Part shown: positions 1,476-9,746 of the stretch, one piece after another
Layout of the letters: each line of letters begins with the position of its first letter
How positions within the stretch are numbered: position 1 is the stretch's first letter
Source of the DNA: a virus
DNA length: 22,095 nucleotides
Strand: one strand, 5' to 3'
Virus record (IMG/VR): IMGVR_UViG_3300041409_000307
Location: 1 to 22,095 of that record
Notes under the pieces: generated by a model
Told to the model about the DNA's origin: nothing
Database searches by the model: none
The model's input: only the letters and a program-made list of their open reading frames with translations
Position numbers and translations under genes: made by a program

Positions 1476-2153
1476 CTACTGCTTGCTTCCCGCCGGGGCC
1501 ACGTAGCCGCGGCGTTCCGCCTCGGCGATCCCGCCCGCGCCCTTGCGCTGCGGCGGGGCGTCGCGGCGCCCCTGCCCGAGGTCGGCCCGGCCGTTGCCGG
1601 CAGGCGCGAACGCCTTCACCTTGTTCGCGACCTTCGCCTCGTCGACCTCGCCCTTGTCGGTGAGGTACTTGGACAGGTCGAGGTCCTCGAGGAGCGCGTC
1701 GCGCTGCTCGTCGGACAGGACACCTTTCGCGGCGGCCCGGAACTCGGCCCGGACGAGGCCGGGGGCGAGCGCCTTCCGTGTTTCGGCTTCTGCCTCTTTG
1801 CGGGCGGCCGTGACGGCCTTCTCCTGCTCGGTGGCGTTGGCGGCTTCGAGCTCGTCGGCCTTGGCGGCTTTGGCTTTCAGCGTGTCGTAGTCGCCGCGGG
1901 CCTTCGCGGTGTTCTCGTGTTTGCGGGACTGGTGTTTCCAGTACGCGGCCTGCTGCGCGTCGGTCATTTCGGCGACGGGCGTGTCGGCCGGGAACCCGGT
2001 GTCGCCCGTGACGGGCGGTACGGGGATCGGGGCCGGAGGATCGGCGGGCGGATCGTCTGCGCCGCCGAGGATCGGCCAGATCGGGCCGCGTCGACTGACA
2101 CCGAGCGGAACGAGGGGCGCACCGGTCAGCGGATGTAGCAGGTACTTCGGCAT
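1476..2153 (-). CDS. Scaffold-like head assembly protein
   Basis: A 225-aa protein starting MPKYLLHPLTGAPL at ATG 2153. The start is chosen because a GGGAG site lies 7 nt upstream and because an in-frame extension further upstream is low-quality sequence. Residues about 35-55 are proline-rich. Residues about 65-115 form a charged, Ala/Glu/Lys-rich probable coiled coil (KAKAAKADELEAANATEQEK). The C-terminal part is acidic, then basic and flexible. This composition and the position just before decoration and capsid genes are typical of phage scaffolding proteins, which fill the procapsid and are then released. The ribosome binding site is part of a tandem CCCATGNCGGG element shared with the small terminase gene. 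Confidence 0.7.
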   Translation of the reverse strand: MPKYLLHPLTGAPLVPLGVSRRGPIWPILGGADDPPADPPAPIPVPPVTGDTGFPADTPVAEMTDAQQAAYWKHQSRKHENTAKARGDYDTLKAKAAKADELEAANATEQEKAVTAARKEAEAETRKALAPGLVRAEFRAAAKGVLSDEQRDALLEDLDLSKYLTDKGEVDEAKVANKVKAFAPAGNGRADLGQGRRDAPPQRKGAGGIAEAERRGYVAPAGSKQ

Positions 2154-2161
2154 GCGTGTCT

Positions 2162-2196
2162 CCCATGTCGGGATTCGGTTGGTTGCCCATGACGGG
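2162..2196 (-). repeat. Tandem CCCATGNCGGG pair, copy A, at the scaffold ribosome binding site
   Basis: On the plus strand CCCATGTCGGG (2162-2172) and CCCATGACGGG (2186-2196) lie exactly 24 bp apart. Each can form a small CCC/GGG hairpin. On the minus strand the element nearer the gene merges into the GGGAG ribosome binding site of the scaffold gene. The same arrangement with the same 24-bp spacing occurs at 7652-7686 before the small terminase gene. Confidence 0.6.
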
Positions 2197-2199
2197 CGG

Positions 2200-2215
2200 C
2201 CCCGCAGACGCGGGG
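2200..2215 (-). other. GC-rich hairpin after the HNH gene
   Basis: CCCCGC (2200-2205) and GCGGGG (2210-2215) form a perfect 6-bp stem with a 4-nt loop, 23 nt past the HNH stop. There is no T-tract on the minus strand, so it is not a classical terminator. It could stabilise an mRNA 3' end or slow the polymerase between the HNH and scaffold genes. Confidence 0.4.
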
Positions 2216-2238
2216 AAGAAAGAGGGAGTGGGGACGGC

Positions 2239-3078
2239 TCAGGCCAGTACGGCGGCCACGCGAAGCCGGTATGCGAGGAAGTCCAGCAGAGGCTTGGCGC
2301 CCTTGCTGGAATTGCACGAGTCACAAGCCGGAGCCAGGTTCGTCCAGTGGCTGCTACGGCTAACCGACACCGGCTCAATGTGGTCGATGTCAGTGGAGGG
2401 TGCGCCGCAGTAGACGCACGGGTCGTTCGCGATCAGCTCGCAGTACTCCAACGCCTCGGCGTCAAACGGGGCCTGCGCACGGACCGGGTCCCAGCTCCTG
2501 GACTTGTCCGGGTTGGCGCGCGCCCACCTACGCTTGTACGCGCGGACGCGCTTAGGGTTCGCCAGGCGGTACCGGGTCTGCATCGCGTTCTGAGTGTCGC
2601 GGTTCTTCGCCCGCCACTCCTGTTTCGCGAGTCGATCAGCAGCACGGCACTCGTCGCAGCGGCAGCCACGGCTCTTGTACCCCAGCACCGTTCCGTGCTC
2701 GAACTCCCCGCCCCTCTCCTTCGTGGCGCTGCCGACGGCGCCACGTTCCCGGAGGCGCCATAGATGCATGGCGCACAGACCCTTACTGTGGTTCGGCTTC
2801 TCGCACCCATCGACGGCGCACGGCTTTCCTCGCCAGGGCTGGGCGACAGCCTCCGGATCGCCCCTTCTCGTCCACATCGCGTAGTGGTTGGCACACCAGC
2901 CACGCGCTCGGACCGGGAGGGCGCAATCCGCTATCGAGCAGACCCGCTCTGAACGCTCCAGCTTCTCCCGAGTGATCTCGTCTCGGTTCGCCCGCCACCA
3001 GCGCATGTAGTGCGTGTTGCACCACCCGCGTCCGGTAACCACCCCTGTGCACCCATCGACGCAACAGGTAGCGTCCAC
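2239..3078 (-). CDS. Zinc-finger HNH endonuclease, free-standing homing type
   Basis: A 279-aa protein from GTG 3078, with GGAG 7 nt upstream. Three tandem Cys/His modules come first: C6/C10/C20/H23, then CSIADC...WCANHY, then CAVDGC...LCAMH. A GCRCDECR knuckle and a basic region follow. The last 75 residues are a His-Asn-His nuclease domain: CVYCG, DIDHIEPVS, then NLAPACDSCNSSKG. Such proteins cut DNA with a metal-bound beta-beta-alpha fold; the finger array probably reads the target. It interrupts the head operon between the MuF-like and scaffold genes, as mobile HNH genes often do. Its codon use looks less GC-biased than its neighbours, consistent with separate arrival. Confidence 0.85.
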   Translation of the reverse strand: MDATCCVDGCTGVVTGRGWCNTHYMRWWRANRDEITREKLERSERVCSIADCALPVRARGWCANHYAMWTRRGDPEAVAQPWRGKPCAVDGCEKPNHSKGLCAMHLWRLRERGAVGSATKERGGEFEHGTVLGYKSRGCRCDECRAADRLAKQEWRAKNRDTQNAMQTRYRLANPKRVRAYKRRWARANPDKSRSWDPVRAQAPFDAEALEYCELIANDPCVYCGAPSTDIDHIEPVSVSRSSHWTNLAPACDSCNSSKGAKPLLDFLAYRLRVAAVLA

Positions 3079-3140
3079 GTGTCGACTCCAACCAGTCGGC
3101 CATGCCCCGGGCCTGCTCGCAACAGGCGCCGGGGTCCTAC

Positions 3141-3154
3141 GTCAATTCTAGATC
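3141..3154 (-). promoter_or_regulatory. Possible internal late promoter for HNH-scaffold-capsid genes
   Basis: On the minus strand a TAGAAT -10-like hexamer (3145-3150) lies within GATCTAGAATTGAC, about 67 nt upstream of the HNH start. No good -35 is seen 17-19 nt upstream. The 14-mer matches the promoter/operator before the prim-pol gene at 11 of 14 positions, including TCTAGA. CTAG is rare in this window, so the match is noteworthy. Confidence 0.4.
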
Positions 3155-4010
3155 AACGCCCACCCGGAATACCGGACAAGTCGAGTTTGGACTTAACGAC
3201 TTCGGGACCACTGAACCGGTGTTTCTTAACGGTCAAGAGGGGGCCGAGTTCCGAATGATCTCTAACGAGGATCAGCTTCCGGTAGTCCGGGTTCCGCGCC
3301 GCCGCGTCGGAAACACCGAACGTCGACATGATCGCCTCGTGGGCGGCGGCGAGCGTCTCCTCGTCGATCACCTGACCGGGATCTGACCGTCCGTACATGG
3401 GCCGCGGCTCACAGTTACAACCTGGATGGATCGGCAGCAGGTCCGCCTTGTGGTACCTCTGCGTCGAGGCCACCACGCACAACGCGCAGTTCTCCGGGCC
3501 GACCAGCACCCGGCGGTGACCCACTACCTCGCCGTCGTCCCGGATGACCTCGCGCGCGGCGAGCGTCTTCGTCCGCTGCAGATCCGTCTGCGCCGCCTTC
3601 GTCGCCCGGTCCAACCCGTGCCGCACAGCCTCATCCAGCGGTTTCCCCGCGCCGAGATCCCGCCACACCTGCTCACCCGCACGCCGGTACACCACGCCGG
3701 GCGGCGTGCCGTTCCGGGCAGCCGCACCCGTCACCCGATCCAGCCGCACACCGACCGGTCGCGGCGGCACATCCAGCGCCGCCGAACGGGAATCCGCCAG
3801 GTACGCCGACACCAACCCGGCCATCGCCTGCTGACCACCCAGCACGACCGGCAGGACAGCGCGCACAAACGCGGCGATGTCCTCGTCCCGCCACGACGAC
3901 AAGGCCAGCCACGACGCCTCCACCGCAGCCGTCACCCGGTCACGGACCTCCGACATGGCCTGCTGGTACGCCAACGCCAGCGCCGCCGCCTGCTCAGGCG
4001 ACAGCGCCAC
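3153..4010 (-). CDS. MuF-like minor head protein (phage head morphogenesis)
   Basis: A 285-aa protein that overlaps the portal gene by 17 nt. GTG 4010 was chosen as the start because upstream residues are an arginine-rich out-of-frame translation of the portal gene; no clear ribosome binding site is present, so it is probably translated by coupling. The N-terminal half is helical. The C-terminal half has the CALCVVASTQRY...LPIHPGCNCEPRP pattern seen in actinophage MuF-like proteins, which are thought to metal-bind. It ends with HSELGPLLTVKKHRFSG. Proteins of this family are attached to the portal and enter or line the capsid, and the gene normally follows the portal gene as it does here. Confidence 0.8.
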   Translation of the reverse strand: MALSPEQAAALALAYQQAMSEVRDRVTAAVEASWLALSSWRDEDIAAFVRAVLPVVLGGQQAMAGLVSAYLADSRSAALDVPPRPVGVRLDRVTGAAARNGTPPGVVYRRAGEQVWRDLGAGKPLDEAVRHGLDRATKAAQTDLQRTKTLAAREVIRDDGEVVGHRRVLVGPENCALCVVASTQRYHKADLLPIHPGCNCEPRPMYGRSDPGQVIDEETLAAAHEAIMSTFGVSDAAARNPDYRKLILVRDHSELGPLLTVKKHRFSGPEVVKSKLDLSGIPGGR

Positions 4011-5490
4011 TGGCCCGCGGCTGCTGCGTGGCCTGCTGCGGCGGAACCGGGACCGCGGCGACCGGCCGCGGCGCGAACGCCGCCACCCGCGCCAAATCCG
4101 CCGTCTGCTCCGCCAAAATGTCATCCGCCTCATGCGGCGGCACACCCAAAACCTTCACCAACCGCGTCCGCAACGGCAGATCAGCCGTCTGCGACCACGC
4201 CGACGCCCGCTCCGCCAACGACAACCGCTCCACTGGCGACCAGATCACCTGCAACGTGTCCAGATCCGCCCGATCCCGCCCATTCGCGAACCGGATGCTG
4301 TCCGGCAGATACTGGAAACACAGCGACATCACCAACGCCAGCCGGTCATCCACCCGGTCGATCCGGTCCTCCGCCTTGAACGTCAAACCCTCACGCGCCA
4401 ACGACGCGCCCTCCGCCGACTGGTTCTGCCCCTCCGGCGAAAACATGTACATCGGCGTCCGCGTCACCGCCGCCAAATGCTGCACATCGTCCTTCACCGA
4501 CGCCAGAATCGGCGTCAGATCCAGCTGCCCCGACTCCCAGATGTCCGCCTCCGCCGGCAACTGCCAGAACGCCGCCGGATCCGACACGAACAGACCCTCG
4601 TAGTTGATCTCCTGCCCGGCCTTCGCGTGCCCCGCCGGGTAGAACTGCGGCAGGCCCTTGATCGCCCGCTGCCGGAACGCCTGCATCGTCGCGATCACCA
4701 TCCGGTCCAGGATGGTGTGGTTGATGCGGTCCAGGATGTCGGTGTGCGTCTCGAACTCGCCCTTGCCGCGCTTGTTCGGGAAGTGCACCACCGGCATGTT
4801 GTCCACCGGCAGCTGCGCCCCGGCAGCACCACCCAGGGCCTCGTCCCAGCCCCACGTGCGGGAGTTGAACTCCATCCGCCAGCCGTTCAGGCGCTTCGCG
4901 TCACGCGACGCCACGAACCGGGTCACCTTCGCCCGGCCGTCGCCCTTCGGCAACGTTAGATACGCCAGATCCCGGTCCGCCACGTCGTCGTGGAACATCT
5001 TCAACGCCGCCAGCACCCGGTTCGGGCGGGCCGGGTCGTTTTCCGTGACCACCTGCCGCGGATCCTCCGCCGTCACCAACGGCACCGTCGGATCGTCCTC
5101 ACTCGGCGGGCCCACGATCATGTAGCCCTCCGACAGGCCCAGCATGCAGTCCAGCGTGTCCGCGATCTGCACCGTCAACCCGGCCCGGCGGTACACCCGC
5201 CACGCCACCGCATCCCCGGTCTCGTCGCCGTCCACCGACGTGCGGATCCCGATCGGACGCATCCGCTCCCGCAAAGCCTCCACGATCAGCTCGGCGAAAT
5301 TGCTGCACGCCTTCCGCTGGAACGCCTCGAACGCCTTCCTGGCGTTCTCCGCACCCGCCGGCAACGGCGGACGGCCATCCATACGGTCCGCCAAGCCCTG
5401 CAGCCGATTCAGCCGTACCGGGTCGTTCAGCTTCCTCGACAGCCGGTCCAGCCACCAACCCGGAGAGAACGGGGCATCGACGTCGATCAC
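3994..5490 (-). CDS. Portal protein, SPP1 gp6-like
   Basis: A 498-aa protein that forms the dodecameric portal ring at one vertex of the head, through which DNA is pumped. It starts at GTG 5490 with GAGGGGG 5 nt upstream, 10 nt after the large terminase stop. Length is typical for this portal family. Recognisable parts include the N-terminal WWLDRLSRKLNDPVRLN, the middle LNGWRMEFNSRTWGWDEAL with NMPVVHFPNKRGKGEFE, and the tunnel-region LTPILASVKDDVQHLAAVTRTPMY divided over residues about 340-365. The last 30 residues are Pro/Ala-rich and unstructured and overlap the next gene. Confidence 0.9.
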   Translation of the reverse strand: MIDVDAPFSPGWWLDRLSRKLNDPVRLNRLQGLADRMDGRPPLPAGAENARKAFEAFQRKACSNFAELIVEALRERMRPIGIRTSVDGDETGDAVAWRVYRRAGLTVQIADTLDCMLGLSEGYMIVGPPSEDDPTVPLVTAEDPRQVVTENDPARPNRVLAALKMFHDDVADRDLAYLTLPKGDGRAKVTRFVASRDAKRLNGWRMEFNSRTWGWDEALGGAAGAQLPVDNMPVVHFPNKRGKGEFETHTDILDRINHTILDRMVIATMQAFRQRAIKGLPQFYPAGHAKAGQEINYEGLFVSDPAAFWQLPAEADIWESGQLDLTPILASVKDDVQHLAAVTRTPMYMFSPEGQNQSAEGASLAREGLTFKAEDRIDRVDDRLALVMSLCFQYLPDSIRFANGRDRADLDTLQVIWSPVERLSLAERASAWSQTADLPLRTRLVKVLGVPPHEADDILAEQTADLARVAAFAPRPVAAVPVPPQQATQQPRASGAVA

Positions 5491-5500
5491 CAGCGCCCCC

Positions 5501-7165
5501 TCAATTCAGACGGCGCGGCATGTAGAACTCCGGAGACTCACCCAACCCCGCCGCCACAGCATCCAAACGGGCCTGCCACGCCAACACCGCGGCCACCGCG
5601 GCGTCGATCTTCTTCGGCGAGTAGTCCGACTCCTTACCCAACGTCAACTTCTGGTGCCGAATCCGGCGGCGGGCCTGCAGCATGTGCCGCGTCAACGCCC
5701 ACGACCCGTCGTGGGTGAGGTCGCCGTTCTTCACCGCGCCCTCGAACTGCTCCACCGCCCGCTGGATCAGACCCGACCGGCCGCCGGTCATCCACCACTC
5801 GAACGGATGCTGCGCGGACGCCTTCACCTTCACCCGGCCCCCGAACTGGGCCTCCCACGCATTCACGTGCGAGCGCCAGTCCTTCGCCGGGTCGCAGTAG
5901 AACGCCACCACGCCGTACCGCTGGAACGCCGACGCGACAGCGGCCTCGACCTCCACGATCAGCGGCTCCCACGTCGCCCAGTCCTCGCGGCGGTCCGGGG
6001 CCTCCCACACCGCCAGCTCGAACACATGCCCGTCCGCCACCCGCACGCCGATGAGCGCCGTCGCATCCGGTTTGCCCTTCGCCCGGCCACGGGACCCGTC
6101 GAAACCCAAGGTCACCACGTCGCCGTCCGCGACGACCTTCGCCGCGTCCGTGCACCGCCGCCACTCCGGCTGCGACAGGTAGGCGTCCGCCGCGTGCGTG
6201 ATCTGGTTCAGGAAGTCCGCGCGCGACACCTGCGGATCCGACGTCGGATCCCAGATCGTCGCCACCAGATGATCCAAGTCCACATGCCCCGGCGCGCACG
6301 GCGGATCGTGCAGCACACACCCGTCCGGATGCCCCGACGAGTCCCCGTACGCCACCCGCAAACCCAGGACCAGCGACTCACGGTCGTCGAGCTCCGTGTC
6401 CGCCGGGGCCTCACGGTGGTCGTAGAACAGGCCGTCGTCACGGGCGTGACCCGACACGATCGCCCGCCAAAAATTGGCCGACGCCTCAGCCACCGACTCG
6501 TCACCCGGCGTGAACGCATTCGGCGACTCCACGAACGTCCCGCCGACCTTCGCCGTGTTGTTCTTCACCTTCTCGAACAGATTCGGGCCGCCGTTCGACG
6601 GCACCCACTCCTCCGTCTGATCCAACACCGCGAACACCGGCCGGTTGCCCTTCACCGTCCGCGCCGACGACGTGATCGGCTCGATCCGGCCCCGCGGCAA
6701 ATTCACGAACGTGTCCAACGGCTCGAGCCCGGGGTAGGCGTCCAGCAGCGGGCCGTCGCACATCTCCAGCAGCGGAGACCACGTGTTCGCCGTCTGCTTC
6801 TCCGACACCGCCAAGATCTGCACCAGCGGTGTCCGCACCGTCGACCACGGCCTGCCCACCGGCTGCCCGTCGGCGTCCCAGCCGTCCGGCACCACCGGCG
6901 CCAAAGCCTCCGCCAACGCCAACGCCGCCAGGAACGGCGACTTCCCCGCACCACGCGGCCGCGAGTACACGCCGCGTCGGCGGCGGCGGCGACCCGTCAC
7001 CGGGTGCAGCTCGTAGAAGCGGAGAACGAAGTCCTCCTGCTCCCGGTACAGCACAAACGGCTCGTACTCGCCCCGATCCGGTGCCGCCAAGTAGGCGGCG
7101 ACCCAGTCGATGACCGTCCAACCCAGCGTCGGAACCTCACCCGGCTCCGACGGACGCCACGGCAC
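5501..7165 (-). CDS. terL: Terminase large subunit
   Basis: A 554-aa packaging motor ATPase and nuclease. Start GTG 7165 lies 3 nt after the small-subunit stop. The ATPase has a Walker A-like SRPRGAGKS at residues 68-76 and a Walker B FAVLDQTEEW with D182 and the catalytic E185. The RNase H-like nuclease domain shows LGFDGSRG with D356, FYCDPAKDW with D425, and a C-terminal KKIDAAVAAVLAW with D521, the three expected acidic residues. It moves DNA into the prohead through the portal and cuts the concatemer. Order small terminase, large terminase, portal is standard. Confidence 0.95.
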   Translation of the reverse strand: MPWRPSEPGEVPTLGWTVIDWVAAYLAAPDRGEYEPFVLYREQEDFVLRFYELHPVTGRRRRRRGVYSRPRGAGKSPFLAALALAEALAPVVPDGWDADGQPVGRPWSTVRTPLVQILAVSEKQTANTWSPLLEMCDGPLLDAYPGLEPLDTFVNLPRGRIEPITSSARTVKGNRPVFAVLDQTEEWVPSNGGPNLFEKVKNNTAKVGGTFVESPNAFTPGDESVAEASANFWRAIVSGHARDDGLFYDHREAPADTELDDRESLVLGLRVAYGDSSGHPDGCVLHDPPCAPGHVDLDHLVATIWDPTSDPQVSRADFLNQITHAADAYLSQPEWRRCTDAAKVVADGDVVTLGFDGSRGRAKGKPDATALIGVRVADGHVFELAVWEAPDRREDWATWEPLIVEVEAAVASAFQRYGVVAFYCDPAKDWRSHVNAWEAQFGGRVKVKASAQHPFEWWMTGGRSGLIQRAVEQFEGAVKNGDLTHDGSWALTRHMLQARRRIRHQKLTLGKESDYSPKKIDAAVAAVLAWQARLDAVAAGLGESPEFYMPRRLN

Positions 7166-7168
7166 AAC

Positions 7169-7642
7169 TCACGCACCCGGCGCGTCGGCCCCCGGCAGAC
7201 CCTTCAACCCGCCACGGCGACCACGAGACGACGACACAACCGAACCCTTCGACTCCGCCTCATCAGCCTGCGCAAACGTGATCCGCAACCGCGCCCGATC
7301 CTCAGGAGTCGCACCGAACTTCGCCACCCGCAACCGCAACTCCGACGCCAACGACACGCTGCCCCGCCAAAACCTCGCGTGCAACACCGCCGTATCCAAA
7401 AGTTCAGACCAATCCGTCGACGTGAACTCCGCCGACAAAGGCGACTCAGCCCACATCGCCCACCACTCACGCGTCCGCGCCGGCCACGCGAACTCCGTCA
7501 ACTCCCCGCCGACCTCAACCTCGAACGTCGGCAGATCAGGCTGCCCCGTCGGCGTCGCCGCGATCACACGCAGCGGAACAGGATCGGAGTTGCGCCGGGC
7601 CCGGCGGTTCGGATCCTTCGGACGGGGGCCGTTGCCTGCCAT
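7169..7642 (-). CDS. terS: Terminase small subunit
   Basis: A 157-aa protein that would recognise phage DNA and load the large subunit. ATG 7642 has a GGGAGG site 6 nt upstream. The N-terminus MAGNGPRPKDPNRRARRNSD is a start typical of actinophage small terminases. A helical core with WWAMWAESPLSAEF and LDTAVLHARFWRG follows, and the C-terminus is basic and glycine-rich. Position directly before the large terminase supports the call. Its ribosome binding site lies inside the tandem CCCATGNCGGG element. Confidence 0.85.
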   Translation of the reverse strand: MAGNGPRPKDPNRRARRNSDPVPLRVIAATPTGQPDLPTFEVEVGGELTEFAWPARTREWWAMWAESPLSAEFTSTDWSELLDTAVLHARFWRGSVSLASELRLRVAKFGATPEDRARLRITFAQADEAESKGSVVSSSRGRRGGLKGLPGADAPGA

Positions 7643-7651
7643 GTCGTGCCT

Positions 7652-7686
7652 CCCATGTCGGGAACGTCGCGCGTCCCCATGCCGGG
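7652..7686 (-). repeat. Tandem CCCATGNCGGG pair, copy B, at the small terminase ribosome binding site
   Basis: Plus-strand CCCATGTCGGG (7652-7662) and CCCATGCCGGG (7676-7686) are exactly 24 bp apart, the same geometry as at 2162-2196. The longest shared stretch is the 14-mer CTCCCATGTCGGGA. On the minus strand the gene-proximal copy supplies the GGGAGG site of the small terminase gene. Confidence 0.6.
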
Positions 7687-7692
7687 AAGGCG

Positions 7693-9047: not shown

Positions 9048-9668
9048 TCAGCTTCCCCACCAGACGACGCCGCGTGTCTTCGCCCACCTGCGGATCTTCG
9101 CGAACGCGGCCGTCCGGATGTGACACACCTGAACGTCGGTGACACCCAACCGGGCCCCGATCCGCACCAGCGTCTCGTCCAGCAGATACCGCCGCACCAC
9201 AACCTCACGCTCCTTCGCCGACAGGGCCCGCAGCACATCCGCGACGAACAGCCGATCATCCACAGCCGCGACGGCGCGGGACGCCGCCAGGTCGGGAACA
9301 TTCCACACGTAGTCGTCGTCATCGCAGCCGTCGAGCGCGACCGCCCTCTGCCTGTGCTCCGGCAGCTCGTCGACCGTCACGCCGCGGGCGAGCTCCGTGC
9401 GGGTGAGGGAACCCCGGCGCCGCATCTCGTCGATCAGCGCACCCCGCATACGCGGCCACACGAAGTTCTGCCAGGACGCCCCGCCGTGCGGTGTCCAGCG
9501 GGTGAGCGCGGTGAGCCCGTGGTAGACGGCCTCGCTGGTCATGTCGTCCACATCCCAGCCGTCGCTGACGGTCATCGGGTACCGGCGCAGGTGCGCGCGG
9601 GCCACGCTGCGGGCTATGGCGAGGAGCCGGGCCGCGTCCTTGTCGGGGTCGAACCGATCGGAGTCCAC
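9048..9668 (-). CDS. Phage sigma-70 family sigma factor (FliA/WhiG-like)
   Basis: A 206-aa RNA polymerase sigma factor with regions 2 and 4. Region 2 is in residues about 20-90: AHLRRYP, DVDDMTSEAVYHGLTALTRW, then FVWPRMRGALIDEMRRRG. Region 4 is near the C-terminus: LRALSAKEREVVVRRYLL, then IGARLGVTDVQVCHIRTAA, a helix-turn-helix for -35 recognition. A linker rich in acidic residues (GCDDDDY) separates them. GTG 9668 is chosen because a GAGGGGGG site lies about 10 nt upstream; GTG 9719 in the same frame is an alternative. It probably redirects host polymerase to phage promoters, perhaps those of the late cassette that follows. Confidence 0.85.
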   Translation of the reverse strand: MDSDRFDPDKDAARLLAIARSVARAHLRRYPMTVSDGWDVDDMTSEAVYHGLTALTRWTPHGGASWQNFVWPRMRGALIDEMRRRGSLTRTELARGVTVDELPEHRQRAVALDGCDDDDYVWNVPDLAASRAVAAVDDRLFVADVLRALSAKEREVVVRRYLLDETLVRIGARLGVTDVQVCHIRTAAFAKIRRWAKTRGVVWWGS

Positions 9669-9746
9669 CTCACTTCGACCCCCCTCGGAGCTCCGGTGGG
9701 GGCGGCGGCCGGCAGCCACGGGTCGACTGCCGGGCCGCCCTGGGGG

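Follow-up and report, generated by a model that had tools for sequence, protein, structure and literature searches.

Covarying tandem hairpins at the ribosome binding sites of scaffold and small terminase genes point to a probable RNA-binding role of the scaffolding protein in actinobacterial phages

The stretch of DNA analysed here, a 22,095-base virus record from IMG/VR (hereafter the window), carries the same short sequence twice in front of the gene for the scaffolding protein and twice in front of terS, the gene for the small terminase subunit. Our comparative analysis revealed each of these elements to be a pair of short hairpins, both with a GNNA(N) loop; the second hairpin merges with the Shine-Dalgarno sequence, and the element is conserved and covarying in relatives. 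The scaffolding proteins encoded behind such leaders have a basic stretch in common, W-K-x-x-[SA]-R-K-X-E-x-R-x-K, and our computations demonstrate amino-acid/base covariation between its residue X and the third base of the hairpin loop. We therefore consider it likely that the scaffolding protein binds these boxB-like operators and acts as a translational repressor of its own gene and, in some phages, of terS. With a little less assurance, we think that this probably holds for a large class of actinobacterial tailed phages, in which the scaffold would be an RNA-binding repressor whose one-residue/one-base code co-evolves at two operators and balances scaffolding with packaging.

The sequence CCCATGNCGGG occurs exactly four times in the window, at 2162, 2186, 7652 and 7676, as the first-pass annotation of this DNA had stated. 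The chance expectation is a mean of 0.18, and four copies were reached in no shuffle. A window-wide search for diverged copies with up to two mismatches gave 56 matches against 61 expected, and thus no extra population. All four copies read CCCGNCATGGG on the minus strand, in the same sense as the minus-strand genes. The start-to-start distance of 24 nucleotides (nt) in both pairs was confirmed, as was the merger of the gene-proximal copy with the ribosome binding site: a short distance 5′ of the ATG, this copy continues into GGGAG at the scaffold gene (2160..2164, minus strand) and GGGAGG at terS (7649..7654, minus strand), so that the Shine-Dalgarno sequence overlaps the 3′ arm of the proximal hairpin in both leaders.

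The mini-hairpins with CCC/GGG arms that had been proposed for these copies were also borne out. Copy search and folding place a proximal hairpin CCC-GACAU-GGG (2162..2172, minus strand) and a distal hairpin GCCC-GUCAU-GGGC (2185..2197, minus strand) in the scaffold leader, the former with proximal pairing and the latter with covarying outer pairs in relatives, and a proximal CCC-GACAU-GGG (7652..7662, minus strand) and a distal CCC-GGCAU-GGG (7676..7686, minus strand) in the terS leader. The distal scaffold hairpin even gains a fourth G-C pair, with a predicted energy of -5.8 kcal/mol against -2.4 kcal/mol for each of the other three, and the fold predicted for the scaffold leader includes both short hairpins. 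The scaffold gene (1476..2153, minus strand, 225 aa) matches the head scaffolding protein family phrog_4708 (E 1.2e-28), and its relatives in seven phage records carry the annotation "scaffolding protein". The product of terS (7169..7642, minus strand, 157 aa) matches Pfam Terminase_7 (E 3.7e-33); among the PHROG families, its best match carries the label minor tail protein and its second the label terminase small subunit.

The covariation of the arms, a check put forward in the first-pass annotation, was examined in relatives with a search core of CC-GNNAN-GG only, which left the pairs outside it free to vary. At 168 distinct distal sites, the next pair outside the core is paired in 80% (49% when shuffled) and the second in 74% (46%), levels reached in 0 of 2000 shuffles; for the proximal hairpin the next pair stands at 89% against 73%. 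The stem pairs seen are CG, GC, AU and UA. Among 40 hand-picked sites, 89.6% of the cells are paired against 71.2% in shuffles, two-sided changes occur in 43 cells against 15, and the covariation score is 0.479 against 0.174 for shuffled and at most 0.063 for slid partners. The stem pairs outside the search core thus do covary. The distal stem differs between sites (ACC/GGT, GCC/GGC, TCC/GGA); the proximal one is mostly CCC/GGG. Judged by sequence, the loops (GACAU, GAAAC and GACAA, for example) would fit a GNRA-like pentaloop of the form GNNA(N); their bases 1 and 5 at the 168 distal sites are G-C in 68, G.U in 65, G-G in 21 and G-A in 14. Proximal loops of four bases, such as CCC-GACA-GGG, also occur, and since a four-base loop displaces the dyad in DNA but leaves the RNA hairpin intact, this argues for an RNA rather than a DNA element. 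In 47 of 48 tandem scaffold leaders, the proximal 3′ arm reads on into a purine run that resembles a Shine-Dalgarno sequence and lies at a distance of 6-14 nt from the start codon; the gene of the putative repressor thus has a conserved RNA structure over its ribosome binding site. No Rfam family matched the window at its gathering score, and Rfam searches of seven loci, among which were two stretches surrounding the window pairs, returned three tRNAs and one sub-threshold match to a microRNA model.

A scan of viral contigs for pairs with a gap of 3-30 nt yielded at least 119 stretches. The loci collected to that point held 111 distinct pairs among the matches listed, the window's two being included via a near-identical contig; within this list, the gap is 6-17 nt in 92 pairs, of which 9 have the 24-nt spacing and 39 a spacing that is a multiple of three. 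Fixed spacing, which had been taken as a property of the element, is therefore local to the window, and we rejected it together with the leader peptide that had been offered as an alternative. A mere duplicated segment, the other alternative, is difficult to reconcile with a tandem pair standing before 120 distinct scaffold proteins while stems and spacers vary. An open reading frame of at least 60 aa follows 89 of the 111 listed pairs and belongs, by protein similarity, to the terS group in 38 and to the scaffold group in 36; the other 15 pairs precede other or low-complexity frames.

Given that selection by motif was to be avoided, relatives were then gathered by protein homology, giving 72 terS loci from bacterial genomes and 12 and 80, overlapping, from viral contigs (157 used), and 80 scaffold loci. 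In the regions preceding 132 distinct terS starts we counted 91 hairpins in which a 3-bp stem carries a five-base G..A loop. No other of the 16 five-base loop classes exceeded 37 there, and in two control regions the G..A class itself gave 12 and 19; 49 scaffold upstream regions gave 47. Across 237 loci totalling 3.15 Mb, in which a few contigs may count twice because they are present in duplicate, 225 tandem hairpins with a start codon behind them lie in sense and 19 in antisense. Of 120 such matches in the terS-selected loci, 35 begin within 0-499 nt of the terS start and 51 begin 3.5-5.5 kb downstream of it, at the position of the scaffold gene, which makes 86 in all; the other 34 lie elsewhere. 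An early narrow scan of the 157 terS loci found at least two sites in 8 and one site in 14; it demanded a pyrimidine at loop base 3 and so missed GAAAC loops. From these sequence comparisons, the pairs appear to stand mostly before scaffold and terS genes in many actinobacterial viruses. Of what the first-pass annotation expected from related phages, the recurrence of paired hairpins before late genes held, and the constancy of the 24-nt spacing did not.

The two sites also go together within a locus. Among 124 long loci, 29 have the terS pair and 49 the scaffold pair, with both in 25 of the 29. With one spurious scaffold call removed, 25 loci have both pairs, 4 the terS pair only, 23 the scaffold pair only and 72 neither (p 3e-9), and the scaffold site is thus the commoner of the two; thinning to 69 terS proteins at most 80% identical leaves 11, 3, 16 and 39 (p 0.001). 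Moreover, loop base 3 is identical at both genes in 29 of 29 loci with two proximal hairpins (13 A, 13 C, 3 U), which reduce to 19 distinct combinations because of near-duplicate contigs and include one, from L156, that has unusual stems and may be due to chance.

Several observations on the placement of the pairs and on the loci themselves were made in passing. In L166, L203, L187 and L271, a tandem pair precedes a small open reading frame just in front of terS, at 524, 194, 224 and 188 nt from the terS start, respectively, and L084 is similar. In L011, a tandem pair stands before a gene start that resembles, by eye, that of the window's head decoration protein, a possible third target. The sequence TACGGGTCTGG recurs within about 100 nt upstream of terS in L134, L135, L136 and many other loci and lies near the genome end in named phages; it is probably part of cos. 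The scaffold of L183, a contig of a metagenome-assembled genome named Clostridium, is almost identical to that of the Microbacterium contig L176, and L183 is probably misbinned.

The hairpins are associated with the basic stretch of the scaffolding protein. A tandem pair is present in 46 of 64 loci with a helix-bearing scaffold and in 2 of 33 without (p 2e-10), and at least one hairpin in 54 of the 64 and 8 of the 33, a comparison in which the stretch rule was shaped on the same loci, duplicates were included and kinship was ignored. Shared ancestry explains part of this association. We then collected 168 distinct stretch-bearing proteins from all loci gathered up to that stage, 80 of these loci having been sought by a KWK-type pattern; the tandem pair precedes 120 of them and a proximal hairpin only 21. 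At the 141 proximal hairpins, His at X goes with C at loop base 3 in 82 cases and with U in 1, Asn with A in 48 and with C in 3, Ala or Thr with U in 3, and Trp with A in 2 and with C in 2; at the sites with a single hairpin, Asn goes with A in 14 of 14. At the 120 distal hairpins, the counts are 73 C, 3 A and 1 G for His, 33 A, 3 C and 1 G for Asn, 2 U for Ala, 1 A for Thr, and 1 A and 2 C for Trp.

Residue X ranks first of 140 scaffold alignment columns in separating A from C (137 rows), with a normalised mutual information (MI) of 0.84 against 0.55 for the next column. A tree of 133 rows was built with the motif residues left out, and on its well-supported branches nine independent row pairs differ in His/Asn. 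Within these nine pairs the base changed in the same way in 7.6 on average, in the opposite way in 0, and was unchanged in 1.4 (median p 0.008, range 0.008-0.016). A quick earlier tree of 141 rows gave 6 same, 0 opposite and 2 unchanged of 8 (p 0.03). The independent-pairs test bears on the code and not on the association between helix and hairpin. In the window, X is His79, and C occupies position 3 in all four loops, as the code predicts. The codons of residues 72-84, WKHQSRKHENTAK, which include His79 and form the putative RNA-binding helix, lie at 1902..1940 on the minus strand. AlphaFold2 modelled the window scaffold with low overall confidence (mean predicted local distance difference test, pLDDT, 65.9; predicted template modelling score 0.26), and the motif falls within a predicted helix at residues 65-85, with block mean pLDDT values of 84 (61-70), 82 (71-80) and 67 (81-90). 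Pfam gave no match for the window scaffold or four other scaffold sequences; a PDB sequence search returned only two designed proteins (E 0.24 and 0.3) for the scaffold and none for the 29-residue helix region.

Twelve named phages, chosen by similarity in terS, terL or scaffold, provided a further view, with 5 that fit, 4 without both stretch and hairpins, and 3 unclear or against. Prophi102-2 has His in its stretch and scaffold loops GUCAU and GACAU, which match the code, and Streptomyces phage SF3 has His with the loop GACAC twice. Asn is found in prophiFSQJ01-1 (loops GCAAC and GGAAC), which is also one row of the 168-protein set, and in Actinomyces phage xhp1 (GCAAC and GAAAC). Cornie has Thr with GUUAU and GAUAU, and fails the strict stretch rule because Asp replaces Glu. 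London, Larva and ReT1v-2 have neither the stretch nor a hairpin near the scaffold start, and Apricot lacks the stretch and has a single distant hairpin only. Milly (L451) and phiSASD1 (L454), also without this stretch, have GNNA-type hairpins with other stems upstream of the scaffold gene, by chance or as a variant; their scaffolds contain other basic stretches and perhaps represent a further class of the same code.

A number of observations weigh against the proposal that the scaffold reads these hairpins. The element is not universal, with neither pair in those 72 of the 124 terS-selected loci, all with at least 6.5 kb downstream, and by the rule applied 27 of the 168 helix-bearing scaffolds have no hairpin. 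Conversely, L172 and L249 have the tandem pair with a scaffold that lacks the helix, and phiGD20-1 has the pair at terS and a related stretch, RRWEKRAK, with no such hairpin at the scaffold. The scaffold profile was seeded from hairpin-bearing loci and matched in 97 of the 124 loci, the 27 without a match being left out, and the limits given above for the comparison of 64 with 33 loci belong here as well. The code is less clean at distal than at proximal loops (His-C 73/77, Asn-A 33/37). With respect to structure, pairs -3 to -6 also exceed shuffles, by less (53% against 41% at -6, 0 of 2000), indicating that relatedness feeds part of the excess, and two of five measures on the 40 hand-picked sites, double-change pairs and further pair types, are level with shuffles. 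The minimum-energy fold of the window's terS leader is a long hairpin between the copies (-22.2 kcal/mol, z -2.6). The scaffold helix is poorer in arginines than the N peptide of phage P22, which recognises a comparable loop, and a figure legend in the paper on that peptide names arginine and isoleucine, not His, as the contacts of loop base C (PMC11480772). In terS, the best column, which lies in a poorly conserved region, separates the loop classes with an MI of 0.85 (57 loci); scaffold X reaches 0.73 when scored in 49 of those loci.

This last result would suit an explanation in which the small terminase subunit, with its often basic N-terminus, or another phage protein reads the hairpins, and the helix of the scaffold has some other task. 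A basic RxRR-type N-terminus is found in terS at 40 of 52 loci with the pair and 35 of 72 without. However, 23 of 48 loci with the scaffold pair have no terS pair, and the terS columns with high MI are poorly conserved and have many states, whereas X takes just three states in that set (H, N, W) and is well separated from all other scaffold columns. We regard this explanation as unlikely, albeit the most serious of the rivals. The resemblance to N-boxB recognition could instead point to antitermination or attenuation, with the hairpins controlling transcription elongation. That the proximal hairpin runs into the Shine-Dalgarno sequence in 47 of 48 tandem scaffold leaders speaks against such a site, as do the recurrence of the pair in mid-operon, immediately before one gene, and the lack of a consensus or of GCTCTT in the 40 distinct 40-mers upstream, the only 40 nt searched; we find it improbable.

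The arms are inverted repeats in DNA as well, which would suit a DNA element, operator or late promoter; a regulator such as the sigma-70-family factor is encoded upstream of the packaging genes (9048-9719), and the strand bias of 225 against 19 is by itself compatible with a promoter. Against this, the loop is often closed by G.U (at 65 of the 168 distal sites, where the search core fixed the 5′ base as G and left the 3′ base free), its length switches between four and five, and the spacing varies widely with no evident helical phase; we judge a DNA operator or promoter the least probable of the alternatives. Hardly more probable is a functional role for the long inter-copy hairpin in place of the two short ones. 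The terS leader of the window has it as its minimum-energy fold, but the fold of the scaffold leader holds the two short hairpins, and distal stems vary while the proximal stem mostly stays CCC/GGG, a pattern that would break a helix between the copies. We rejected it as the general structure.

Some neighbouring features deserve mention in their own right. In the terS leaders of L018 and L042 the spacers are complementary by eye, like those at 7640-7690 (minus strand) of the window, and a second, switch-like fold may exist. An HNH endonuclease gene (2239-3078, minus strand) lies directly upstream of the scaffold leader in the window and ends about 40 nt before the distal hairpin. The gene at 9048-9719 (minus strand), whose product has sigma-70 regions 2 and 4 by Pfam, possibly encodes a late-gene sigma factor.

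On balance, repression by the scaffolding protein accounts best for these observations, and it can be cast as follows. Each pair would act in the mRNA as a translational operator composed of a stable distal hairpin and a weaker proximal one, whose 3′ arm starts the Shine-Dalgarno sequence. An N-peptide-like basic helix of the scaffold would read the GNNA(N) loop, its residue X being matched to the third loop base. Scaffold that is free and unassembled, probably in dimeric or oligomeric form, would bind both hairpins and thereby freeze the proximal one, weak on its own at -2.4 kcal/mol, over the Shine-Dalgarno sequence. Translation of the scaffold gene, and of terS in a subset of phages, would then stop, and because free scaffold blocks both translations, the output of two assembly factors would be tied to the amount of unused scaffold. 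We infer here that binding is direct and oligomeric, that its effect is repression and not activation, and that it senses assembly. The first-pass annotation had already suggested a shared translational operator bound by a phage RNA-binding protein or coat protein. One type of RNA operator common to terS and scaffold, with covarying arms and a 3′ arm running into the Shine-Dalgarno sequence, agrees with our results; the coat protein does not, as the helix matching the loop sits in the scaffold (coat proteins themselves were unscanned).

If true, scaffolding proteins of actinobacterial phages would have a second, regulatory role that explains how the levels of assembly factors are set, and one peptide with two short RNAs would allow a direct test of the old question of how scaffold synthesis is matched to capsid assembly. 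Specificity switches are predicted by the residue/base code, from which a set of orthogonal RNA-peptide pairs could be derived, and the element would help in the annotation of scaffold and terS starts.

In the literature, CCCGACATGGG occurs in 4 papers, none of which, judged by title and abstract, concerns phage leaders, and no RNA operator of a scaffolding protein appears among the matches listed, which comprised titles and abstract starts with most subscription journals outside coverage. The closest elements by position are the SAS/ESAS sequences of cluster K mycobacteriophages, GGGATAGGAGCCC repeats just before the start codons of many genes; about half have an extra repeat pair, and the authors found little support for hairpins formed by the repeats (PMC3203893). 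SAS/ESAS share with the present element a short repeated sequence directly before start codons, and differ from it in the strong covariation of hairpin arms seen here. The sequence is also another one, and here 74 of 89 pairs, among the matches listed, precede two gene families.

In MS2-type RNA phages, the coat protein binds a translational operator hairpin over a gene start site. A structural protein and a hairpin over a start site are common to both systems; here, however, the phages are DNA phages, the genes are scaffold and terS, the hairpins are in tandem, and loop and protein are different. The unassembled scaffolding protein of P22 reportedly lowers its own synthesis post-transcriptionally, and we know of no description of a comparable hairpin operator or basic helix for that autogenous control. 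In contrast to P22, terS would be a second target here. The P22 scaffolding subunits leave the procapsid and recycle (PMC9576892), so that a pool of free scaffold exists in P22.

The nearest parallel in recognition is N/boxB, where, as in our elements, a short basic helix goes with a hairpin that has a GNRA-like pentaloop. The P22 N peptide is printed as NAKTRRHERRRKLAIERDT and binds a boxB with a GACAA loop, and the simulation text has the loop C contacting His7 and Arg11 (PMC11480772); a passage in a second paper likewise describes an interaction of the looped-out C with Arg11 and His7 (PMC12550061). The systems differ in that the helix here is part of a capsid scaffolding protein, the RNA extends over ribosome binding sites, each site has two hairpins, and the base preference switches with the residue. 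None of the 40 distinct 40-mers preceding the distal hairpins of scaffold leaders contains a boxA-like GCTCTT, and these 40-mers have no shared consensus, these 40 nt and this form of boxA being what was searched. T-R-R-H-E of the printed P22 N peptide aligns with S-R-K-H-E of the scaffold, and in both His goes with C at the same place in the loop; we therefore propose that the scaffold helix binds its hairpins in an N-boxB-like manner.

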